Shown one piece after another: positions 3,222 through 20,171 of a stretch of DNA of 53,504 bases (position 1 is the stretch's first letter; every line of letters begins with the position of its first letter). The translations under genes and the position numbers were made by a program. The DNA lies in assembly GCA_015492245.1 (NCBI GenBank), contig WGFM01000001.1:1-53504 (forward strand), in the 5' to 3' direction. The notes beneath the pieces were generated by a model. It ran no database searches and was not told the DNA's origin. It saw only the letters and a list, made by a program, of their open reading frames with translations. This stretch comes from Deltaproteobacteria bacterium (lineage in GTDB: Bacteria; Desulfobacterota; GWC2-55-46; DRQE01).

Positions 3222-5708
3222 ATGGACTCAAAGAGTGAGAAGAGGGAAGTTCTGGAATCCGTGGCTCTTCCTGTTGCAGGGATGACCTGCTGGCGTTGTG
3301 CCCAGAAGCTGGAGGAGGCTCTCGAGGGTATGGCTGGTGTAGAGGAGGCCGTTGTCAACTTCAACCGCAGGGAGGCTTTTATCTCCTATGACCCCTCCAT
3401 GACATCCATCCGCCAATTCATAGATGCCATACGGAATGAGGGCTTCGAGCCCGGGGTGAGCTGTGCAACCATCGGCATAGAGGGCATACGCTGTGCCTCC
3501 TGCATAAACAAGATAGAGGAGGCTCTAAAGAGTTCTCCCGGGGTGGTGGAGGCCTCCGTAAATCCTGTTACAGGGGCTGCGCGTGTGGACTACATCCCTG
3601 AATTTGCCACCCTTGGGAAGATAGAGCGGGCGGTGGAAGACAGTGGTTACAGTGTGGTGAAAGTTCCCGAAGAGGTGCCCGAGGACAGAGAGCAGGCGGC
3701 AAGGCAACGAGAGTACGAAACCCTCATGAAAAAATTCTGGTTCAGCATCATCATTGGTATTCCAGTGATGGCACTTTCATATCCCGAATACATAGGTCTT
3801 GGAGAGCTTCTTCCAAGGGGAAGCACCTCGCTTCGCATCCTATGGGGGCTCATGGGTGTAATCACCCTCCCCATTCTTCTGTGGGCAGGCAGCCAGTTCT
3901 TCGTCGGGGCATGGAATGCCTTCAGGCATCGCTCGGCAGACATGCATACCCTCATAGCAATAGGCACCTCGTCGGCATGGATATACTCCACGGTGGCCGT
4001 TCTATTCCCAGGCATATTCCCACGGCCAGAACTGGCGGATGTGTTCTACGATGTAACGGCGATAGTCATAGCACTGGTGGACCTTGGCATGGCGCTGGAA
4101 CTCAAGGCACGAAGCCGCACCAACGAGGCGATAAAGAAGCTTATGAGTCTACAGGCACGGACCGCCAGGGTCATAAGGGATGGAGAAGAAAAGGACATAC
4201 CCGTCGAGGAGGTCCTCGTTGGGGATGTAATCATCGTCAGACCGGGCGAGAAGATTCCCGTGGACGGAGAGCTCATAGAGGGCTCTTCCGCCGTGGATGA
4301 GTCCATGGTAACGGGTGAGTCCATACCTGTTGAGAAGACAACCGGAGACGAGGTCATAGGTGCCACCATAAACAGGACCGGCACATTCAAGTTCAGGGCA
4401 TCCAAGGTTGGCAAGGACACCCTGCTCTCACAGATCATACGCATGGTTCAGGATGCCCAGGGCTCGAAGGCACCCATACAGCGGGTGGTGGATCAGGTGG
4501 CAGGATACTTCGTTCCAGCCGTCATAATAGTGGGCATACTGGCATTCATGGCGTGGTTTACCCTTGGTCCCGAGCCACAGCTGGTATATGCCGTGGTGGT
4601 CTTCGTGAGCGTTCTCATAATAGCCTGTCCATGTGCGCTTGGGCTCGCCACCCCGACGAGTCTTATGGTGGGTGTGGGCAAGGGAGCAGAAAACGGGATA
4701 CTCATAAAGAGTGGAGATGCCCTCCAGACCGCGCACAGGCTCGACACCATAGTGCTCGACAAGACAGGCACCATCACGAAGGGAAAGCCCTCTCTCACCG
4801 ATGTGATACCCCTTGGTACGGTATCGGAGGAAGACCTGCTGCGCCATGCAGCCTCCGTTGAGAGGGGTTCGGAGCATCCCCTTGGAGAGGCAATCGTAGA
4901 GGGTGCAAAGAGCAGAGGACTTGAACTCACCGAAGCAGAACAGTTCAGTGCCATCCCTGGCCACGGGGTCGAGGCACGCGTGGACGGCATAGAGGTCCTC
5001 CTTGGAAACTCAAAACTCATGCGCCAGAAAAAGATAGAGCTTGGAGCCGCAGCAGATGAGGCCGAAAGGCTGGCAGACGAGGGAAAGACCCCCATGTATG
5101 TTGCCCTGGATGGCAGCCTGGCAGGCATCGTAGCCGTTGCCGATACGGTCAAGGAAGACTCCCGTGATGCGGTAAGGGCACTCCGGAAGATCGGTCTCGA
5201 GGTGGTAATGATTACAGGAGACAACGAGCGTACCGCCCGCGCCATAGCCAGAGAGGTTGGCATAGAAAGGGTTCTGGCAGAGGTGCTGCCGGAGGACAAG
5301 GCACACCAGGTAAAGCTGCTTCAACTGGAGGGCAAGAAGGTAGCCATGGTGGGCGATGGCATAAACGATGCCCCTGCCCTTGCGCAGGCAGACATAGGGA
5401 TGGCAATAGGCACGGGCACGGATGTTGCCATAGAGGCTTCCGACATAACCCTCGTCAGGGGCAGTCTCAAGAAGGTGGTAATAGCCATAGGGCTCTCACG
5501 TGCCACCATGAGAAACATAAAGGAGAACCTCTTCGGTGCCTTCATATACAACGGGCTCGGAATCCCTGTTGCAGCAGGGCTGCTCTACCCCTTCTTCGGC
5601 GTGCTGCTCTCCCCCATCATAGCCGGAGCCGCCATGGCATTCAGCTCTGTAACGGTGGTAACGAATGCCAACCGCCTGCGCATGTGGAAACCACGGGAGG
5701 TCAGATGA
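3222..5708 (+). CDS. copA: Copper-translocating P1B-type ATPase CopA
   Basis: An 828-residue inner-membrane ATPase that exports Cu(I) from the cytoplasm. There are two N-terminal heavy-metal-associated domains, with GMTCWRC near residue 21 and GIRCASC near residue 90. Eight membrane helices follow, with the ion-binding CPC (IACPCALG, near 468), the phosphorylated Asp in DKTGTITKG (near 513), the SEHPLGEAI nucleotide-domain motif and the hinge GDGINDAPA (near 710). The C-terminal YN and MxxS signature residues of Cu(I) pumps are compatible. The start ATG has AGGAGA close upstream. Length is typical. It overlaps the cupredoxin gene by 4 bp (ATGA), so the two are translationally coupled. Specificity for copper rather than silver is inferred from the CPC motif and the neighbour. 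Confidence 0.96.
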
Positions 5709-6085
5709 TGCTTACGAAGATAATAGTAGACATTCTGGGTTTCATACTCATAGGGCTCGTTGCATGGTACTTCTGGTTCTCGAAAAAAGAGGGCAAGGCC
5801 GCAAGGGTTTCAGGTGGGGTGCAGGAGGCCCTCATAACCGTGAAGGGTGGATATACCCCCGATGTCATAATAGTCAAGGCAGGCAGGCCAGTCCGCCTGC
5901 TCTTTGAACGGCTCGAGTCATCCCCCTGCTCAGAGCGTGTCCTCTTCAAGGACTTCGACATCTCCAGGCTCCTTCCGGAAGGGGAAAGGGTTACGATAGA
6001 GTTCACACCAGAAAGGGCAGGCGAGTACGAGTTCACCTGCCAGATGGGCATGTACAGGGGCAGGCTCGTCGTAGAGAAAGGTTAG
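5705..6085 (+). CDS. Membrane-anchored cupredoxin-like protein
   Basis: About 126 residues: one N-terminal membrane helix (residues 5-24, [20 protein letters not shown]) and then a single cupredoxin-type beta sandwich facing the periplasm. Likely copper ligands are the Cys in SSPCSERV and the Cys/Met pair in CQMGMYRG near the C-terminus, the arrangement seen in cupredoxin_1/COG4633-type proteins that accompany copper ATPases. Two ATGs (5705 and 5708) share the site GGGAGGTC; the first overlaps the copA stop. Known relatives are poorly characterised. A role as copper acceptor or chaperone on the periplasmic side of CopA is inference from the operon. Confidence 0.82.
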
Positions 6086-6099
6086 ACAGGAGGTGGCCC

Positions 6100-8022
6100 G
6101 TGGCAGTAGACCCGGTATGCCACATGACCGTAAACGAGGAGCGCTCTGAGAAGGTCGAATACAGGGGCAGGGAGTACTACTTCTGTGGCAGGGGCTGTAG
6201 AGAAAGGTTCGAAAGGGCTCCCCAGAGATACACAGATAGAAAGACAACTGGCACCGGGGGGAAACGCTCGGTCGCCTACTTCTCGATGGAGATAGGGCTC
6301 GAGGCTGGCATGCCCACATACAGCGGGGGGCTCGGTGTGCTCGCAGGTGATACCATTCGTGCCGCCGCAGACCTTGGCGTTCCAATGGTGGCGGTAAGTC
6401 TTCTCTACAGGGGCGGATACTTCTACCAGAGGCTTGGTCCCGACGGGTGGCAGACCGAGGAACCGGTGCGCTGGGCAGTGGATGACTTCCTTGAGCCACA
6501 AGAAGAGCGTGCCGCAGTTACAATAGAGGGGCGCACAGTATGGCTCAGGGCATGGCGCTACGATGTCAGGGGCGTGGGAGGATATGTGGTGCCCGTCTAC
6601 TTTCTCGATACGGACCTTCCAGAGAACTCCGAACAGGACAGGACCCTAACACACTTTCTTTATGGTGGAGACCAGCGATACAGGCTCTGCCAGGAGGCGG
6701 TCCTCGGCATGGGTGGGGTGAGGATGCTTCGTGCCATGGGTTACGAAAAGATAAGGCGGTTTCACATGAACGAGGGCCACGCAGCACTTCTTACCCTTGA
6801 ACTGCTGGACGAAGAGGCGAACAGGGCCGGAAGAGCCTCCTTCAGCCGTGAGGACATCGAGGCAGTGAGGGCAAGGTGTGTCTTTACGACACACACGCCG
6901 GTTCCCGCAGGCCATGACCAGTTCCCCATGGAACTCGTGGAAAGGGTGCTCGGCTACCGTGAGGATCTGTCCCGGATGAAGGAACTCTTCTGTGTTGACT
7001 GCATGGAGCTTGTGGGCAGGAATGTGGCTCATCTCAAGGACTTCTCCGAGGTGAAGGACATCTTCGGTACCGGCGAGATGTTCAACATGACATACCTTGC
7101 CCTGAACCTGAGCAGATATGTAAATGGCGTGGCAAAGAAACATGGCGAGGTCTCAAGGCTCATGTTTGCGGGTTACACAATAGATGCCATAACAAACGGA
7201 GTGCACGCAGCCACATGGACATCAAAGCCCTTTGAGGCTCTCTACGACCGCTACATCCCGGGCTGGAGAAAGGACAACTTCAGCCTGAGATATGCACTCG
7301 GCATACCAAGAGGAGAGGTCTGGCTTGCCCACATGGAGGCCAAAAGAAGGCTCATCAACCGTGTCAACAGGGAGACCAACGCAGGCATGGATGTGGACGC
7401 CTTCACAATAGGCTTTGCCAGACGGGCCACCGCCTACAAGAGGGCAGACCTCGTATTCGATGATCCTGGAAGGCTCGAATCCATCTCGTCGAAAGCGGGT
7501 CCCCTCCAGATAGTCTTTGCTGGCAAGGCTCATCCCCATGACACAGGTGGCAAGGAGATAATAAAGCGCATCTTCGCCGTGAAGGACTCTCTCGGAGGCT
7601 CCGTGAAGGTGGCCTATCTGAGCAATTACGACCTCGAACTTGGAAGGATGATGACCTCTGGCGTGGACACATGGCTCAACACCCCGAAACCGCCGCTCGA
7701 GGCATCTGGCACGAGCGGGATGAAGGCAGCACTGAACGGCGTGCCGAGCCTGAGCATCCTCGATGGATGGTGGATCGAAGGCTGCATAGAGGGTGTTACG
7801 GGCTGGGCAATAGGCAGGAAGGTGGAAAACGAGGATGAGGACAATCGCTCGGAAGACGCAGCCTCCCTCTACGACAAGCTGGAACACACCATAATGCCCA
7901 TCTTCTATGGCGAACAGGAGAGATTCGTAAACACCATGGTTCACGCAATAGCCCTCAACGGCTCCTTCTTCAACACCCACAGGATGATGCAACAGTATGT
8001 GCTCAACGCCTATTTTCGTTGA
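6100..8022 (+). CDS. glgP: Alpha-glucan phosphorylase with N-terminal YHS metal-binding domain
   Basis: A 640-residue protein. Residues 1-45 are a YHS domain (DPVCHMTV, then [13 protein letters not shown]), a small Cys-rich module usually attached to copper ATPases. After a short linker, a complete short-type GT35 phosphorylase begins at [20 protein letters not shown]. The family signatures [10 protein letters not shown] and [10 protein letters not shown] are present, as is the pyridoxal-phosphate lysine region [14 protein letters not shown]. The enzyme releases glucose-1-phosphate from glycogen-like glucans in the cytoplasm. The start is GTG with the strong site AGGAGGT; it begins 14 bp after the cupredoxin gene and belongs to the same operon. 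Fusing a metal-binding module to a glucan phosphorylase is odd; whether metal regulates the enzyme is unknown. Confidence 0.9.
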
Positions 8023-8506: not shown

Positions 8507-11425
8507 TCAATTCTGTCCATCTTCCATTGCCACAAAGCGGCGGCGCATGGTGTTCTCGCAGATGGTCCTTGGGTTCATGAACTGAAGGAGGTAGTCAACA
8601 CCTCCTGCCTTCGAGCCAACCCCTGACATGGCAAACCCACCGAATGGTTGTCTTCCGACGATGGCTCCCGTTATCTTTCTGTTGATGTAGAGGTTGCCCA
8701 CGGCAAACCTTCTCCTGGCCTTCTCTATATTCTCAGGGCTTCTTGAGTATATTCCCCCTGTCAGCCCATAGGGAGTGGCATTCGCAAGCTCTATCGCCCC
8801 GTCAATATCAGCTGCCCTGAGTATTACAAGAACAGGACCGAAGATTTCCTCCTGGGCAAGTGGCGAGGAGAGGGGGTCTACATCTGTAAATACGGCTGGG
8901 CCCACATACCAGCCCTCGCCACTGGCCTCCTTTACAAGGATGGGGCTTGCCTCTTTCAATCCCAGCTCTATGTAGCCCCTGACCTTTTCCACCGCCCTTT
9001 CGTCTACGAGGGGTCCCATAAAGTTATCGGGGTCCTCTGGTGGGCCTATCCTTATGCTATCCACGGCGTCTCTCAGCCTTTCCACGAAGCCCTCCACCCT
9101 GCCCGAAAGGATGACCCTTGAGCATGCCGAGCACTTCTGGCCCTGGTATCCGAAGGCAGACTCTATAACGCCCTTCATGGCCTCATCCATATCTGCTGTC
9201 TCATCCACGATTATTGCGTTTTTGCCACCCATCTCTGCCACCACACGCTTTATACTCCTCTGGCCCGGATGGACCCTGCCGGCAGATTCAAGTATACGAA
9301 GCCCCACCTCCTTCGAGCCTGTAAAGGCTACAAAGTCCACACTGGGATGGGCCACAAGAAAGTCTCCCACCTCTTTTCCCTCTCCTGGTATGAACTGCAA
9401 TACACCGTCAGGCAATCCAGACAGCCTCAGGATTTCCGAAAGCCTCCAGCCTGTTACAGGAGAGAGGCTCGATGGCTTGAAGACGATACAGTTTCCTGTT
9501 ACAAGCCCTGCAGAGACCATCCCTGTTGCCATGGCCAGCGGAAAATTCCATGGAGAGATGACAACCCCCACCCCCCGTGGCTCGTAGAGGTAAGAGTTCT
9601 TCTCACCTGGAAGGCTCCTTACCTGTCCACCTCTGGAGAGCCCTATCATCTCTCTACCGTAGTATTCGAGATAATCTATGGCCTCTGTAACATCCCCGTC
9701 TGCCTCCTTCCATGTCTTGCCAACCTCATGGACCATGAGGGCCATGAGCTTGAACCTCTCCTCTCTCATCATCTCTGCGGCCCTGAAAAGATAAGAAGCC
9801 CTCTTCTCAGGTGTGGTCTCCTTCCACCCCATCCAGGCCCTCCTTGCCTCCTTGATGGCCCTTTCGGCATCCTCCCTTGATCCCTTTGCCACATATCCCA
9901 CAACCTCTTCGGGTCTTGCCGGGTTTGTGGAGACGATCTTCTCCTCCCTTTCTGCCGCCTCTCCACCTATGTAGAGGGGGTACTCCCTGCCGAAGCCCTT
10001 TTTTACCTCCTCAATCCCTGCTGCCATCCTCTTTCTGTTCCCTGCCTTCGAGAAGTCCATGGATGGTTCGTTCCTGAAACCCTGTTCCTCTGTCTCTGCC
10101 CTTCTCTGTGGAGCAGGCAGGGCCATGAGTTCTTCGAAGGGCACCTTTTCTACAAAGGATTTTTTGAGGAATGACTCGTTTGATGTGTTCTCAAGCAACC
10201 TCCGTATGAGGTAGCCCATACCCGGTATAAGCCCACCCAGGGGCACATAGACCCTTACCCTGTAGCCGAGCTCCTTTACGGCATCCCTTATGGGTTCTGC
10301 CATCCCGTAGAGTGTCTGGAACTCCATCGTCCCTTCTGGAACTTCCAGTTCCTCACCCATGGCCATGGCACTGCTTATACTCCTTATGTTATGGGTGGCA
10401 AAGGCAGGCCTTATGTATTCCCTGTTTTCGAGTATGAGCGCGGTGAGTTTTTCGTAATTGAGGTCTGTCTCTTCCTTCTCGACAAACACAGGCACCTGCC
10501 ATCCCATCTGTCTATTTACTGCCACCTCGTAATCCCAGTAGGCACCCTTCACAAGGCGGATGGCTATCCTCTTTCCCCTCTGCCTTGCCCACAGGATAAG
10601 CCCCTCGAGGTCCTCCCCAGAGTCCCTGAGGTATGTCTGTATGGCTATGCCTGCCTCCACATCCTCGAACTCCTCAACCATCTCCTTGAATATGGCTATG
10701 GTAATGTCCTTGTAATAGTAGTGTTCCATGTCGAAGGTTATGGAGCCCTGGTGCTCCCTCAGCATCTCGAAGATGGGTCTGAGCCTTTCCTTCGTTCTCT
10801 CTACAGAGCCCTTCCATCCCACAGGGTCAAGCTGTGAGTAGAAGGAGGACACCTTAACGGATATGTCCACCACAGGGATGGAGCCCTTGTTGTCCCTGTC
10901 AAGCAGTGGGTCTGCCTCCCATCTTCTGGTAAGGCTGTGAAGGTGCGGGATGACCTCAAGGTATCTATCCCTGTAGATGTCTGCCTCTTTTTCGCTTACC
11001 ACCGTCTCTCCGAGCAGGTCCACTGTGAAGGCAAACCCCTCTTTTCGAAGTGCGTTGAGGGTATCTTCCATCTCTTCTTTACTCTCTCCACCTATAAACT
11101 GGCGTGCGAGACTCCTTACATTCGCCCTTATGAGGGCCGAGGCCATGGTGGTAAATGGAGGAACCTGTGGGATGGTCTTTACACCCATCTTGACAAGATA
11201 TGGACCGCCAGAGAAGTACTCCTTGAGGAGCCTTACAACAAGGGTATCGTCCTTCAGGGAGGGCAATACATCGACGAAGTGGAAGAGCCTCGTCTTGAAG
11301 GCCTCATCCGCCATCGCCCATTCCATGACCTTTCCCTTCCATCTTCTCCTGTCGAAAAGCGAGGGTGTGGTGCCCCTGGAGGCATCATAGAGCCTTCTGG
11401 CTATGGATTTTATCTTCTCTTCCAT
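8507..11425 (-). CDS. putA: Bifunctional proline dehydrogenase / 1-pyrroline-5-carboxylate dehydrogenase
   Basis: 972 residues catalysing proline to glutamate in two steps. Residues about 30-430 form the FAD-dependent proline dehydrogenase barrel, with IAIRLVKGAYWDYE and YVPLGGLIPGMGYLIRRLLEN (the substrate-binding RR-L-EN region) visible. Residues about 480-960 form the NAD-dependent aldehyde dehydrogenase, with ISPWNFPLAMATG, FTGSKEVGLRI and the catalytic Cys in FGYQGQKCSACSR. There is no N-terminal ribbon-helix-helix DNA-binding domain as in enterobacterial PutA, so it should not act as its own repressor. It lies 72 bp downstream of the phospholipase-D gene on the same strand. The two-domain fusion, without extra C-terminal domains, matches short PutA forms. 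Confidence 0.94.
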   Translation of the reverse strand: MEEKIKSIARRLYDASRGTTPSLFDRRRWKGKVMEWAMADEAFKTRLFHFVDVLPSLKDDTLVVRLLKEYFSGGPYLVKMGVKTIPQVPPFTTMASALIRANVRSLARQFIGGESKEEMEDTLNALRKEGFAFTVDLLGETVVSEKEADIYRDRYLEVIPHLHSLTRRWEADPLLDRDNKGSIPVVDISVKVSSFYSQLDPVGWKGSVERTKERLRPIFEMLREHQGSITFDMEHYYYKDITIAIFKEMVEEFEDVEAGIAIQTYLRDSGEDLEGLILWARQRGKRIAIRLVKGAYWDYEVAVNRQMGWQVPVFVEKEETDLNYEKLTALILENREYIRPAFATHNIRSISSAMAMGEELEVPEGTMEFQTLYGMAEPIRDAVKELGYRVRVYVPLGGLIPGMGYLIRRLLENTSNESFLKKSFVEKVPFEELMALPAPQRRAETEEQGFRNEPSMDFSKAGNRKRMAAGIEEVKKGFGREYPLYIGGEAAEREEKIVSTNPARPEEVVGYVAKGSREDAERAIKEARRAWMGWKETTPEKRASYLFRAAEMMREERFKLMALMVHEVGKTWKEADGDVTEAIDYLEYYGREMIGLSRGGQVRSLPGEKNSYLYEPRGVGVVISPWNFPLAMATGMVSAGLVTGNCIVFKPSSLSPVTGWRLSEILRLSGLPDGVLQFIPGEGKEVGDFLVAHPSVDFVAFTGSKEVGLRILESAGRVHPGQRSIKRVVAEMGGKNAIIVDETADMDEAMKGVIESAFGYQGQKCSACSRVILSGRVEGFVERLRDAVDSIRIGPPEDPDNFMGPLVDERAVEKVRGYIELGLKEASPILVKEASGEGWYVGPAVFTDVDPLSSPLAQEEIFGPVLVILRAADIDGAIELANATPYGLTGGIYSRSPENIEKARRRFAVGNLYINRKITGAIVGRQPFGGFAMSGVGSKAGGVDYLLQFMNPRTICENTMRRRFVAMEDGQN

Positions 11426-11497
11426 ATCTCTTTTCCAAAGATAGCAGGGAAGAGTTGTTTTTTCAATCCCTATCCTGACCGTGTGAGGAGGTGGGTT

Positions 11498-12682
11498 TCA
11501 CAACCAGCGACGGGCCAGCCAGCCCACCATTTCTGTTAGCCGGCGCCCCCAGGGCCGTCCTGCCCAGGCTGAGGGAGATATTTCCTCAGATTCTGAAATA
11601 TCCTGCATGAACTGTTCCTTCAGTCTACGGCAGAGTTCTGTGTTGCATGTAACCAGGTTGAGTTCATAGTTTACGAAGAAACTTCTGTAGTCCATGTTTG
11701 AAGTACCTATGGTTGCCCATACACCGTCAACAACAGCAGTTTTGGCATGCAGTAGTCTGGGCAGGTATTCATAGATACGCACCCCTGCCCTCAGTATATT
11801 CGCGTAGGTGGCCTGGGCAGCCCACTGGACGAGCCACACATCGTTCTTTCTCGGCACAAGCAGGCGGCAGTCCACACCGCGGCGGGCTGCGTCAGCCAGT
11901 CCGAGCACGGTGTGGTGGTCTGGCACGAAATATGGTGTGGTAAGGTAAAGGAATCTGGTGGCTCGTCTGAAACTGTCCGCATAAAGGCAGTGAAGGGGAT
12001 GGCGGCATATACGGGTGTTGTTGGGAACCAGGGCGCTCACTGCTGTCCTTTCTTCAGGGAACATGTCGAGTCTACCCTCCCAGAAGGCATCGAACAGTCG
12101 GGCTGCTTCTTCTGCAAGCTTGCCATAGACGCACACATGGGTATCGCGCCAGCGTCCTTTTCCGAACACCGCAAGGGAGCTTTCACGGTGGATATTGAAC
12201 CCACCCAGGTATAGTATGTCTTCGTCGATAACGAGAATCTTTCGATGGTCTCGCCGGTTGTAGCTGAGTGGTGCACGCCAGTTCCAGCGGTGAAAGTAAC
12301 GCAGACATACGCCATGCTCACGGATATATCTTCCAAGGGCACGGGAACTCCAGAAAAGCGAGCCTGCAGCATCTATGAGTAGACGAACATCCACACCCGA
12401 GCATGCCTTCTCTGCCATGGCACGGGCGAATCTACGCCCCACCTCGTCGTCTGCAAATATGTAGCTTTCGAGCCTGATACTGTGCCTTGCCGAGTTGATG
12501 GATGCCAGCATGCTCTCATAAAGCTCGTCTCCTTCGGTAAATATTACGAATGGCTCTTCACCGGCGGCAAGGCATGGCACACAGCCACAAACCCTCTCTC
12601 CGGTTCCTCCCCCCAGGGAGTGTCCGCAGCACAACCCATTCGTATTGTCATGGCTGGGGTTGTATCCTGTCATGTTCGCCAT
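11498..12682 (-). CDS. cls: Phospholipase-D family cardiolipin synthase
   Basis: 394 residues with two HKD catalytic motifs: DHRKILVIDEDILYLGGFN (about residues 147-165) and LHAKTAVVDGVWATIGTSN (about 315-333). This is the active site of bacterial cardiolipin synthases, which join two phosphatidylglycerols or use related head groups at the inner membrane. There are no N-terminal membrane helices as in ClsA, so it resembles soluble ClsB-type enzymes. The first 35 residues are Cys/Gly-rich and unusual (GLCCGHSLGGG, then VCGCVPCL); they could bind a metal or attach to the membrane. It starts 10 bp after the thioredoxin gene and is probably cotranscribed. Substrate is inferred from the family; other PLD activities are possible. 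Confidence 0.85.
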   Translation of the reverse strand: MANMTGYNPSHDNTNGLCCGHSLGGGTGERVCGCVPCLAAGEEPFVIFTEGDELYESMLASINSARHSIRLESYIFADDEVGRRFARAMAEKACSGVDVRLLIDAAGSLFWSSRALGRYIREHGVCLRYFHRWNWRAPLSYNRRDHRKILVIDEDILYLGGFNIHRESSLAVFGKGRWRDTHVCVYGKLAEEAARLFDAFWEGRLDMFPEERTAVSALVPNNTRICRHPLHCLYADSFRRATRFLYLTTPYFVPDHHTVLGLADAARRGVDCRLLVPRKNDVWLVQWAAQATYANILRAGVRIYEYLPRLLHAKTAVVDGVWATIGTSNMDYRSFFVNYELNLVTCNTELCRRLKEQFMQDISESEEISPSAWAGRPWGRRLTEMVGWLARRWL

Positions 12683-15958: not shown

Positions 15959-17224
15959 CTATTCTATACATCTTGCCACCTTTTCCATGATAGTGTAATC
16001 ATCACCAAATTTACATATGGAGTCGCAATGCTCACACAGTTCTGAGAACAGGATATAGGATATTTTTATGTCTTCCTTTGTTACCATAGAGGGTCTTTTG
16101 AGTTGTGCTATTATTTCCTTCTCCCTCTGCTCCGGGGCAACAAGATAGAGCATCATCTTTTCCGAAGCAGGAAGAGTAAGCGCCAGATCAGTCAGGCGCA
16201 GTATGCCCGAGTATATGGATGTGCTCTTCTCCACCTCGTAGGCACACACAATCCTGCTGGTTCCCTTTTCGAACCAGATTACATCGATAAGGTCAATGGT
16301 TCTTCTCACATCCTCTTCAATATCCAGCTCAGGAAGTTTTGGCAAGGAAAGAGATGAGAAGTTTTCATTATTATAGGATCTCGACCTGTCGTTGACAGCC
16401 ACAATAACATCGTAGCCAAGAGATCTTCCGATCTTCATCAGTACATACTGTATCCTTGTGTGCATGTCCTCTTCTTCAAGCTCCGACAGGACTTCCTGGT
16501 GCCTCTTTCTCAGCAGTTTCTCCCTTTTCTTGCGCTCCTTCTCTATCACGATCTGGACATTCTCATCCACGACAATCTTCCCCACACCTATATCGAACAG
16601 CAATCCCGCTATTGCCCCCAGGTCCTTTGACAGTATATTCCTGAATTCATCATTTACCTGCAGGATCATGTCTCGCATCTCCAGGTAACTGCTCCAGGAA
16701 CCCAGCTTTTTCTTGTCTCTAAATAACAGATTGAATCCATTCACCATGGCCGTGTTGAAGGGTGGGATGATTGTCGGGTGGATGAAATACAGAATGTTCG
16801 ATACTGCCGGGCCCAATCCCTTGATGTTAGAGTGCGACAGCCTTATGATTTCATTGATAATCTGCTCTTCCCTGCCCGACCTCAGGCAGGACTCCAGGAA
16901 CTGGCCAAAGATGGTCTTGTTTCTACTATTTTCATAAATATCCGGAATCCTGAGTTTCGGCTTCCAGTAAAAGGGATGTGCTGCTCCCTCGAAAACCTGT
17001 TTCTGCTCGGTTATTGCTGTTAACACCACTTCCAGTGAGGAGCCCTTGAAATCGGCAGGAAAGATACCGTTTTTGATGTCCCTTACAACCTGTTCAACGC
17101 CCCTGCGAATGGCTCCGAAAGCCTTTAATCTTGCCTCATTGTTGATGAACCATGTGTTGTATACGCTCTCTGGATCATCCTTGTAGTCCCCTATGATGGA
17201 TAGGATTCTTTCCCGGTTAATCAT
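15959..17224 (-). CDS. Putative PD-(D/E)XK-type nuclease (orphan restriction-like protein)
   Basis: 421 residues. The N-terminal two thirds are helical and include a highly charged stretch (EKERKKREKLLRKRHQEVLS, about residues 233-252) likely to form a coiled coil. The C-terminal part has an LIDVIWF...AYEVEKSTSIYSGILRL pattern (Asp near 313, E-V-E-K near 328), matching the D-x(n)-E-x-K/E core of PD-(D/E)XK nucleases. The following strand, MMLYLVAP, fits that fold. There is no membrane segment. No DNA methyltransferase lies beside it, so a standard restriction-modification pair is not visible. It has its own promoter and an operator-like palindrome upstream. Its composition is more AT-rich than the biosynthetic genes, which suggests acquisition. 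The activity is inferred, not known. Confidence 0.6.
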   Translation of the reverse strand: MINRERILSIIGDYKDDPESVYNTWFINNEARLKAFGAIRRGVEQVVRDIKNGIFPADFKGSSLEVVLTAITEQKQVFEGAAHPFYWKPKLRIPDIYENSRNKTIFGQFLESCLRSGREEQIINEIIRLSHSNIKGLGPAVSNILYFIHPTIIPPFNTAMVNGFNLLFRDKKKLGSWSSYLEMRDMILQVNDEFRNILSKDLGAIAGLLFDIGVGKIVVDENVQIVIEKERKKREKLLRKRHQEVLSELEEEDMHTRIQYVLMKIGRSLGYDVIVAVNDRSRSYNNENFSSLSLPKLPELDIEEDVRRTIDLIDVIWFEKGTSRIVCAYEVEKSTSIYSGILRLTDLALTLPASEKMMLYLVAPEQREKEIIAQLKRPSMVTKEDIKISYILFSELCEHCDSICKFGDDYTIMEKVARCIE

Positions 17225-17623: not shown

Positions 17624-18154
17624 CTATGTTGATCCGCCTCCTGTGGGTGTGCCTCCACCGCCCTCTTCCTTTTCCTTCTTGAGGTCTTCAGACATCTTGT
17701 CCATAAGGGCTTCCATATATTCCTGCAGTATGCTCGGTGGTGGAACAGGTGCCATCTTCACCCTGAGAAGGCTTGAGCCCTCCACATTGTAACTGTACTT
17801 TCTCGAGTAGGAAGCATTCACAGAGGCTGAAAATGGGCCCCAGCCCCCCTGAGCCGATACACCCACCTTTGTCTCACTTGTGGTAGCCATGGTTATGGCC
17901 ATCTTCACCTCTATGATGCTCTCCTGAAACTGATAGTAACCTGGAAAGAATCCCATGGCAAGAAGGGGAAACTCTATTGTCTTGGTGGGGTCCTTTATGC
18001 TTGGAAGTGGTATCTTGGTGTCGGCCATGAACTTGGCCACTGTGGTGCTGTTCTTGTCCAGTCTCGTCTGTGCATCTGCGATGCCAAGGGCAAGCTTGGT
18101 TACCATCTCTGGAAATGGAACATTAAGAAGTTCTTGACCTACCTGATTTGCCAT
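17624..18154 (-). CDS. Cassette protein C, remotely DUF2589-like
   Basis: 176 residues, no signal peptide or membrane helix. It opens MANQVGQELLNVPFPEM, then ALGIADAQTRLD, a beta-rich middle with IEFPLLAMGFFPGYYQF and IIEVKMAITMATT, then YSYNVEGSSLLRVKMAPVPPP, a helix (ILQEYMEALMDKMSEDLKKE) and a Gly-rich tail. The order of an AQ helix, a PLLA strand and an EVKM strand recalls DUF2589 proteins, a family without known function; that link is tentative. It is clearly paralogous to protein A (18688-19071), sharing the GIADAQ/GVADAQ, GS-L-R-VK/GTSTLKV and VPPP blocks. A very strong site AAAAGGAGGTG precedes its ATG. Confidence 0.7.
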   Translation of the reverse strand: MANQVGQELLNVPFPEMVTKLALGIADAQTRLDKNSTTVAKFMADTKIPLPSIKDPTKTIEFPLLAMGFFPGYYQFQESIIEVKMAITMATTSETKVGVSAQGGWGPFSASVNASYSRKYSYNVEGSSLLRVKMAPVPPPSILQEYMEALMDKMSEDLKKEKEEGGGGTPTGGGST

Positions 18155-18178
18155 GTTTCACCTCCTTTTAACGACTAA

Positions 18179-18673
18179 CTACTCATCTACAATCTTTATA
18201 TTTGGTGCAGGCCGCATAACGAGCCTGATGGTGCTTACGCTCTCTGGGCCTGTCTCGTCGGGCAGGAGCTGTGTTATCTGCACACCGTTCTCGAGAGACA
18301 CACCCCCTTTTATCTCTACCTCCAGAGAATCTATAACAGTGCGCACCTTGCCTTTTCTTGCCTCTTCGTTCAGTTTCTCCATGGAGCTCCTTATGTGGCC
18401 TGCAAGGTTGTCCACCTTCAGCATGGGCCTTGCCCTTCTTAGCCTTTCGAGTTCCTTTTCGAGCCTGATGTTTTTCTGCACGGCGGTTCTAAGTTCCTTC
18501 TTAAGATTGGTGTTCTCAAGGGTTTTTGTCCTGACCATCTCCTCTGCCCTGTTCAGCCTGGTTTGAACCGACTCGATTTCTCGCGCCCTCTTGTTAAGAT
18601 TGTTCTGGAGGGTCTTTATCCTGGTCTGGAGTTCCCTGACCTTTCCTCTTAAATCCACATTAAGGGGCGACAC
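18179..18673 (-). CDS. Cassette protein B, coiled-coil protein
   Basis: 164 residues. Residues 8-85 are a long, charged heptad-type coiled coil (LRGKVRELQTRIKTLQNNLN and onward to EKELERLRRAR). A small C-terminal domain of about 75 residues follows (SLEVEIKGGVSLENGVQIT, then STIRLVMRPAPNIKIVDE), rich in predicted strands. There is no signal peptide and no enzyme motif. The start is GTG behind AAGGAG with seven-base spacing, 14 bp after protein A; protein C follows after 24 bp. Lying between two paralogues suggests that the three products assemble together, with B as a spacer or oligomerisation subunit. I do not recognise the family. Confidence 0.7.
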   Translation of the reverse strand: MSPLNVDLRGKVRELQTRIKTLQNNLNKRAREIESVQTRLNRAEEMVRTKTLENTNLKKELRTAVQKNIRLEKELERLRRARPMLKVDNLAGHIRSSMEKLNEEARKGKVRTVIDSLEVEIKGGVSLENGVQITQLLPDETGPESVSTIRLVMRPAPNIKIVDE

Positions 18674-18687
18674 TTCTGTGCTCCTTG

Positions 18688-19071
18688 TTATTCTTTCTTG
18701 TCTGCCGGGGGCGGCACTGTTACAAAGTTAACCTTAAGTGTGCTTGTGCCCTCAAAGTTGTAGTTGAAAGCCCCCCTGTATTTGGCATTGAACGGGGCTA
18801 TGAAAATGCCCGCCCCCTTTCTTCCAGGCCCCTTCTCTTCGTAATAGACTGTAACCTTCATCTCCACCGTTACCTCAGGCATGTGATACCAGTTCGGGGT
18901 ATAGCCTATCTCGGCAAGCTCAGGGCTCTCTTTTGTAAGGCTCTTCAGCCGCTCAAGTGAGGCAGCATCAAGACTCCACTGGGCATCGGCCACACCCTCG
19001 CCCAGCTTCTTTATCATGTCTGCCAGCGGGTTTATGAGGATTTCCGTAAGGTCAACCTGTCTCGGCGGCAC
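18688..19071 (-). CDS. Cassette protein A, paralogue of protein C
   Basis: 127 residues from GTG 19071, chosen because AGGAGTTAGGT stands directly upstream and because this start aligns with protein C; the frame is open further upstream but the extension is AT-rich and unlike the family. Key blocks: NPLADMIKKLGEGVADAQW, LAEIGYTPNWYHMPEVTVEM, VTVYYEEKGPGRKGAG, then YNFEGTSTLKVNFVTVPPP. It shares order and residues with protein C but lacks its C-terminal helix and Gly-rich tail. It is first in the operon, behind the promoter at 19145-19172. Cytoplasmic by lack of signals. Function unknown. Confidence 0.65.
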   Translation of the reverse strand: MPPRQVDLTEILINPLADMIKKLGEGVADAQWSLDAASLERLKSLTKESPELAEIGYTPNWYHMPEVTVEMKVTVYYEEKGPGRKGAGIFIAPFNAKYRGAFNYNFEGTSTLKVNFVTVPPPADKKE

Positions 19072-19084
19072 ACCTAACTCCTGC

Positions 19085-19098
19085 TTAACATGTGTTAA
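19085..19098. promoter_or_regulatory. Operator-like palindrome in the cassette leader
   Basis: TTAACA-TG-TGTTAA is a perfect 6-bp inverted repeat with a two-base centre. It ends 14 bp upstream of the GTG of protein A and lies next to its ribosome site, so a bound protein could block translation or elongation. No regulator gene is near. Confidence 0.35.
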
Positions 19099-19144
19099 AC
19101 TCAAATTTGTTGGATTCAATATGTTTTTGACTTTACACTTAAGA

Positions 19145-19172
19145 ATTATCACACAAGAAAAGATCATGTCAA
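19145..19172 (-). promoter_or_regulatory. Promoter of the three-gene cassette
   Basis: Minus strand TTGACA (19172-19167), a 16-bp spacer, then GATAAT (19150-19145): a perfect -35 and a 5-of-6 -10. The start site would be near 19138, giving a leader of about 67 nt that contains the palindrome at 19085-19098. Confidence 0.6.
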
Positions 19173-19223
19173 GCCCTTTTTCTACAACGGGTTGAAAAAT
19201 ATTGTGTCTATATACAAAATATA

Positions 19224-19252
19224 TTGACAAATCTTCACTCTTTTCGTAAAAT
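19224..19252 (+). promoter_or_regulatory. Promoter of the SNase-like gene
   Basis: Plus strand TTGACA (19224-19229), a 17-bp spacer, TAAAAT (19247-19252), 31 bp before the ATG. It is divergent from the cassette promoter, about 50 bp away. Confidence 0.6.
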
Positions 19253-19283: not shown

Positions 19284-20171
19284 ATGGCAAGGGTCAGGAT
19301 ACTCTGGGATCCAAAGGGTTTTGAGCTCGATTCTCTTGGCAGGAAGAGGCTTCTGAGGATAACCGATGGTGATACACCCTATATCTCCCTGTCCATCCGT
19401 ATGCTGAGTATTGACACCCCTGAGGTCCACTACCCTGGCAATCAGGACCCATCGAGGCATGATGAAAGGTTCGAGGAGCTCGCCCGCTGGTTGCACGAGG
19501 GCAAGGCGCCTGTTGATGACGGGCTTGCCTCTCATCTCTACCCAAGGCTTGCCACAGGCAGGGCAGGCACCCTGCAGAAAGAGCAGGGCAAGAGGGCCAC
19601 CCAGGAGTTCCAGAGGCTTCTGGATGAGAAACTTGAGAAACCTGGTGGCAGAAGGCGCCCCATCTTCGTTCGTGCGGCAGACGAACCTTTCGACCATTAC
19701 GGCAGACTCCTTGCATACATCGCCCCCTCTTATACGAGGCAGGAGCTCGATGCCCTCGCTTACAAGGACAGGGCAACCTTCAACCTCCTCATGGTAGAGT
19801 CCGGATGGGCAGCACCCTTCCCCATCTACCCCAGTCTTCCAAAATACAGAGACCTGGTCCTGCTCCAACAGGTGGCAGAAGATGCCTTTGAGAACGAGAA
19901 AGGCGCCTGGTCCGACCCGAACACACTTGCAGGATACGAGTTCAGGATGTGCTACAGGCTATGGGAGGTTACGCGCAAACTGGTAAGGGGCAGGAGGCTC
20001 TCGTCTCAGGAGAAATATGGATGGGTAGAGCGCTACTGTGTCGACATGACAACCCTCGAGGTCTACGAACCACAGAGGTACTACATCGTCAAACCCTGTA
20101 ACAGGATATTTATCTGGCCCGAGGATGTAACCGAGGCGGTGGGTAGGTTGAACCTTCTACCTGCCACATGA
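19284..20171 (+). CDS. Staphylococcal-nuclease-like protein
   Basis: 295 residues starting at ATG 19284 behind GAGAGGTGG. The SNase (thermonuclease, OB-fold) pattern is clear: RITDGDTPYISLSIRMLSID followed by TPE near residues 30-48, with the catalytic-type Arg and Glu retained. A downstream DHYGRLLAYIAP (near 137) carries the second conserved Arg, then LLMVESGWAAPF. The region between is longer than in the 150-residue secreted enzyme, and about 80 extra C-terminal residues are unassigned. There is no signal peptide, so it should be cytoplasmic, unlike secreted thermonucleases. It has its own promoter, divergent from the cassette. Nuclease activity is likely from the retained residues but unproven. 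Confidence 0.8.
   Translation: MARVRILWDPKGFELDSLGRKRLLRITDGDTPYISLSIRMLSIDTPEVHYPGNQDPSRHDERFEELARWLHEGKAPVDDGLASHLYPRLATGRAGTLQKEQGKRATQEFQRLLDEKLEKPGGRRRPIFVRAADEPFDHYGRLLAYIAPSYTRQELDALAYKDRATFNLLMVESGWAAPFPIYPSLPKYRDLVLLQQVAEDAFENEKGAWSDPNTLAGYEFRMCYRLWEVTRKLVRGRRLSSQEKYGWVERYCVDMTTLEVYEPQRYYIVKPCNRIFIWPEDVTEAVGRLNLLPAT

Follow-up and report, generated by a model that had tools for sequence, protein, structure and literature searches.

The window analyzed here is a 53,504-nucleotide stretch of a Deltaproteobacteria bacterium (GenBank assembly GCA_015492245.1, contig WGFM01000001.1). Within it lies a minus-strand cassette of three genes, which we refer to as A, B, and C, together with its promoter region and two neighboring genes:

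15959-17224, minus strand: type II restriction endonuclease-like protein; downstream neighbor, outside the conserved cassette
17624-18154, minus strand: protein C, 176 aa; ATG start at 18154, ribosome site AAAGGAGG
18179-18673, minus strand: protein B, 164 aa; GTG start at 18673, ribosome site AAGGAG
18688-19071, minus strand: protein A, 127 aa; first gene of the cassette
19145-19172, minus strand: sigma-70 type promoter TTGACA-16-GATAAT, 11/12, TG preceding the -10; 73 nt upstream of A
19198-19225, no strand: AT-rich imperfect palindrome (76%), weak
19284-20171, plus strand: staphylococcal-nuclease (SNase) domain protein; divergent neighbor, outside the conserved cassette

The initial annotation had read A, B, and C as a single cassette, and this reading held: the open reading frames are real and share the minus strand, their ribosome sites are good, and the gaps between them are short (14 nt between A and B, 24 nt between B and C). 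The start of A was placed at GTG 19071, which has an AGGAG ribosome site at 6-nt spacing, and not at TTG 19230, the start given in the program-made list of open reading frames. The promoter that had been proposed is likewise present, running from 19172 to 19145, and since similar sites precede A in two related cassettes described below (11/12 in L006 and 10/12 in L007), its assignment to the cassette is supported. A divergent near-consensus promoter at 19224-19252 (plus strand) faces the SNase gene and points away from the cassette promoter. The palindrome reported earlier does exist, although it is weak, imperfect, and AT rich; given that it sits between the two divergent promoters, it may serve as an operator.

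Protein A consists of an N-terminal helix with a GVADAQ..LD motif, followed by beta strands and a VPPP end. Protein B combines a long coiled coil (residues 3-81) with a C-terminal alpha/beta domain that carries a conserved ESVSTxRxxL motif. Consistent with the coiled coil first proposed from the sequence, AlphaFold2 models residues 3-81 of B as one 79-residue helix with pLDDT mostly above 90, whereas the C-terminal domain is modeled as strand-helix-strand-strand-strand with pLDDT of about 60-80. In the model of C, a long helix is accompanied by strands in the 73-88 and 123-137 regions and by a helix at the C terminus, yet with a mean pLDDT of 51 this model is too poor for fold claims; the alignments behind these structure predictions had 6 and 3 rows only. 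Fold searches with the B and C models returned no significant match, and a likeness of the B model to a contractile-injection baseplate was discarded because it was not significant (best E of 1.3, probability of 0.35).

No library that we consulted names A, B, or C, and neither A nor C belongs to a Pfam, NCBIfam, or PHROG family. The cytoplasmic location suggested by the initial annotation is consistent with the 26 A, B, and C proteins examined, none of which has a 19-residue hydrophobic stretch of transmembrane strength. Evident export signals are absent from the cassette proteins, as are conserved Cys or His residues and any named enzyme domain.

A and C resemble each other well beyond chance, as had been noticed from shared motifs. 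They are 34% identical by BLASTP (E = 2e-18), a search of their own genome with either protein returns only the other, and comparison of the A family with the C family by hhalign gives a probability of 99.7 and an E value of 5e-25, with 0 of 100 column shuffles scoring as high. By these comparisons, A and C are true paralogues. In a phylogenetic tree, all A proteins form one clade and all C proteins another (support of 100/99), which indicates that the duplication predates the spread of these cassettes. Eight residues are invariant across A and C (Q29, L32, D33, Y74, E82, S128, P138, and P140 in C numbering), and this set, combined with the lack of conserved Cys or His, is a pattern that reads as structural and non-catalytic. 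The C-terminal domain of B, considered as a candidate third copy, aligned to A and C with hhalign probabilities of 3-9%.

When 84,980 species genomes were scanned with C, two relatives emerged with the same A-B-C order and unrelated flanks, one in a Spirochaetaceae MAG (L006) and one in a WOR-3/Caldifarciminota MAG (L007). Among 395 genomes of the host's own phylum, profile searching yielded 7 carriers, the host included, while 296 and 147 genomes from the phyla of L006 and L007 gave none beyond those already known; C was absent from all 8 genomes sampled in the same genus and family. Related cassettes beyond the window now number 9 loci, in 8 genomes and on 1 plasmid, and include Spirochaetota, Caldifarciminota, and Sphaerotilus, the last on a plasmid (pSna507_unt10 of the cultured Sphaerotilus sulfidivorans). 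These scans indicate that the cassette is rare, patchily distributed, and probably transferred. No relative of C turned up in viral contigs, phages, or PHROGs, and a phage origin is accordingly unsupported.

At 10 of the 10 loci examined, 8 of which are clearly distinct, at least two adjacent A/C-type genes accompany one or two coiled-coil B genes, and the coiled-coil genes end in a C-terminal domain of the B type. Four arrangements were distinguished:

Type I, A-B-C: the window, L006, L007
Type II, C1-C2-A-B1-B2, then a GH5-like gene: L025, L076, L077 (one genus)
Type III, small-C-A-B with PASTA: L026, L027
Type IV, small-C1-C2-D-B: L024, L029

Flanking genes vary between loci except among the three species of one genus. 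Since A-B-C recurs between unrelated flanks in other phyla, the neighborhood survey that the initial annotation had proposed argues that the grouping is not due to chance. In type III, B of L026 is fused to three PASTA domains, and PASTA repeats in B of L027 were seen by eye. The D protein of type IV is weakly A-like (hhalign probability of 57), and in both type IV loci B has a weak STxR motif. A single family for the leading small proteins of types III and IV is unsupported (hhalign probability of 0.3).

Several genes next to these cassettes are worth recording. In L025, a 919-aa protein with a GH5-like domain (9086-11845) overlaps B2 at its end, with synteny preserved across three species of one genus. 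The type III cassette of L026 is directly preceded by a small protein gene (4289-4618), and just upstream lies a gene that combines PG_binding_1 with Peptidase_M15_4 and lacks an obvious signal peptide (3551-4270). Upstream of the L007 cassette are two unnamed proteins, one at 4178-5059 with a C-terminal motif that recalls HEPN domains and no PADLOC match, and one at 5616-6797 with neither a PADLOC nor a Pfam match.

The three proteins have diverged at different rates. Between phyla, identity to the window is 66-79% for C (79-80% for L006 and 60-66% for L007 in the genome scan), 48-50% for A, and 31-38% for B. Within one genus, C1 and C2 have dN/dS values of 0.06-0.11 and A has values of 0.14-0.21, whereas the two B genes reach 0.12-0.19 (B1) and 0.33-0.47 (B2). 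C is therefore the most constrained and B the least, and the cassette genes are real genes.

The remote link to DUF2589 (PF11655) that had been suggested for the cassette proved to be real. In Pfam scans, A, B, and C fall below the gathering score of 23 bits, and their own genome is also without a match. However, hhalign aligned the C family with DUF2589 over ~134 columns at an E value of 1.6e-8 (9e-7 in a first pass), with 0 of 100 shuffles as high, pairing the GQEL helix, the AQ helix, the PLL strand, and the GGWG..SAS block. When a C profile was used in hmmsearch, the only non-A matches exceeding unrelated open reading frames and shuffled proteins were DUF2589 proteins (two sequences labeled as decoys in this test, in L038 and L047, are in fact DUF2589 open reading frames), and the reverse search with the DUF2589 profile retrieved C at 6e-5. 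Common ancestry of C and DUF2589, although remote, is thus statistically supported from both directions.

The resemblance extends to gene organization. At each of 9 DUF2589 loci examined (for example, L028, L036, L037, L046 on Vibrio tubiashii pFP31, and L048), two or three adjacent paralogues are found, as A and C are here. In addition, DUF2589 is followed in L028 and L037 by a gene called V, and A matches the N-terminal half of its product (hhalign E = 7e-7, 0 of 100 shuffles). Taken together, the profile and paralogue-operon evidence places the cassette inside a wider DUF2589 superfamily but outside Pfam DUF2589 as defined. The two groups also differ: a B-type coiled-coil protein, C-terminal domain included, was not recognized at the DUF2589 loci, A and C carry a PVPPP motif, and a gene of ~90 aa follows the DUF2589 pairs of L036, L046, and L048, whereas no such open reading frame lies beside the window cassette. 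This companion is conserved (L036, 6484-6738; L046, 6920-7195; L048, 6930-7193); the two copies tested had no Pfam match, and the L036 copy had no NCBIfam match either. On an unannotated 4-kb fecal "Bacteriophage sp." contig (L049, MT839761.1), positions 1-2440 hold a V-like gene with a DUF2589-like gene on either side. A full-text literature search for DUF2589 gave a single passing mention and no reported function: the gene group AF0414-AF0417 of Archaeoglobus fulgidus is reported to be up-regulated on lactate (PMC3949148).

We consider it somewhat more probable than otherwise (roughly 0.55) that the cassette is an operon, mobile and inherited as a set, which encodes a single cytoplasmic and non-enzymatic assembly, a heteromer of A and C held by B. 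Given that the genes have traveled together between phyla and are kin to DUF2589, one shared protein assembly is probable, and its structural nature is suggested by the invariant residues, the lack of conserved Cys or His, the absence of membrane segments, and the coiled coil. The competing view, that this is an ordinary local operon whose members lack a joint function and are found together only because a single DNA segment was transferred recently, draws on real signs of such transfer, since C is 79% identical between phyla yet missing from the sampled relatives of the host. It is nonetheless already largely contradicted, and we regard it as highly improbable: A and B have diverged far more and are still adjacent, deeply diverged cassettes keep the same components in other gene orders and copy numbers, and the split between A and C is older.

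Two other readings concern what such a module does. PASTA repeats on B of L026 and L027 raise the idea that peptidoglycan, or the hydrolases acting on it, is bound or positioned by the assembly, which might be cargo freed by lysis or injection. The peptidoglycan-binding peptidase gene upstream of the L026 cassette points the same way, as do DUF2589 pairs near a lytic transglycosylase (Vibrio pFP31) and a PF11860 muramidase (Smac51 plasmid). We think this unlikely, and any action of the assembly on the cell wall is speculative. PASTA domains are normally found outside the cell, whereas the cassette proteins lack evident export signals. No such domain or neighbor occurs at the window, L006, or L007, no segment of transmembrane strength is found in the proteins examined, and the peptidoglycan links come from few loci, uncontrolled for background. 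Archaeoglobus fulgidus, moreover, is an archaeon and has no murein. Yet it too is reported to carry a DUF2589 gene group (PMC3949148). A defense role had been raised for the window cassette because two nuclease genes adjoin it, and patchy spread over plasmid and chromosome would suit a biological-conflict module in which A and C act like Trypco2 (PF19631), which in conflict systems is found together with trypsin-like peptidases (PMC7159879). The helix and three strands of Trypco2 come in a comparable order, and its Pfam model aligns below threshold with A of L007 (full domain, E = 0.051) and of L006 (partial, E = 0.13). Kinship was nevertheless rejected, since the best score, for a relative of A, was 14.3 bits against a cut-off of 24.2, the hhalign probability was 11%, and the profile failed to separate A and C from decoys. 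No trypsin-like peptidase gene was recognized at the window or the other cassettes read, whereas the Trypco2 control loci L050-L054 have one. PADLOC gave no match for A or C and weak coiled-coil matches only for B. The nucleases themselves are real (the 421-aa product of 15959-17224 is REase_II-like, with a PADLOC match at E = 1.5e-9 and no Pfam family), but neither was found beside the other cassettes read. Because they are confined to this window, a role in defense or stress is unsupported, and we hold it to be distinctly improbable.

The self-assembling complex that was first suggested for these proteins fits the anatomy of the cassette, and a physical A-B-C complex is inferred. In the non-enzymatic assembly that we favor, A and C are ancient paralogues of a DUF2589-like domain (an N-terminal helix, then beta strands) and would most likely be each other's partners. 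B contributes a coiled-coil rod, and its C-terminal alpha/beta domain would dock on the A-C unit, the rod serving to multimerize or space such units. C may bear the invariant surface and face a conserved partner, and B may act as a variable spacer; in other lineages it is longer, duplicated, or fused to three PASTA domains. An analogy, and only that, is offered by the COMMD ring with coiled-coil CCDC22/CCDC93 (the CCC complex), in which paralogues of a helix-plus-strands protein have coiled-coil partners. The COMMD entries returned by Foldseek were three non-significant hits (probability of 0.03-0.05, E of 2-4) to the poor C model, and no sequence match was found among solved structures in the PDB.

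A broader and more doubtful proposal is that a single undescribed prokaryotic assembly has two branches, the A-B-C cassettes and the DUF2589 operons. Several paralogues of one domain might build a ring, tube, or lattice in it, organized by a coiled-coil rod whose target changes between lineages, with PASTA domains directing it to the cell wall as one example. DUF2589 is present in both bacteria and archaea, and the cassette described here adds two unnamed protein groups to its superfamily and shows paralogue pairing to be a general feature there. As a small, conserved, soluble-looking set of three proteins, the cassette also provides a direct test bed for its structure and interactions.
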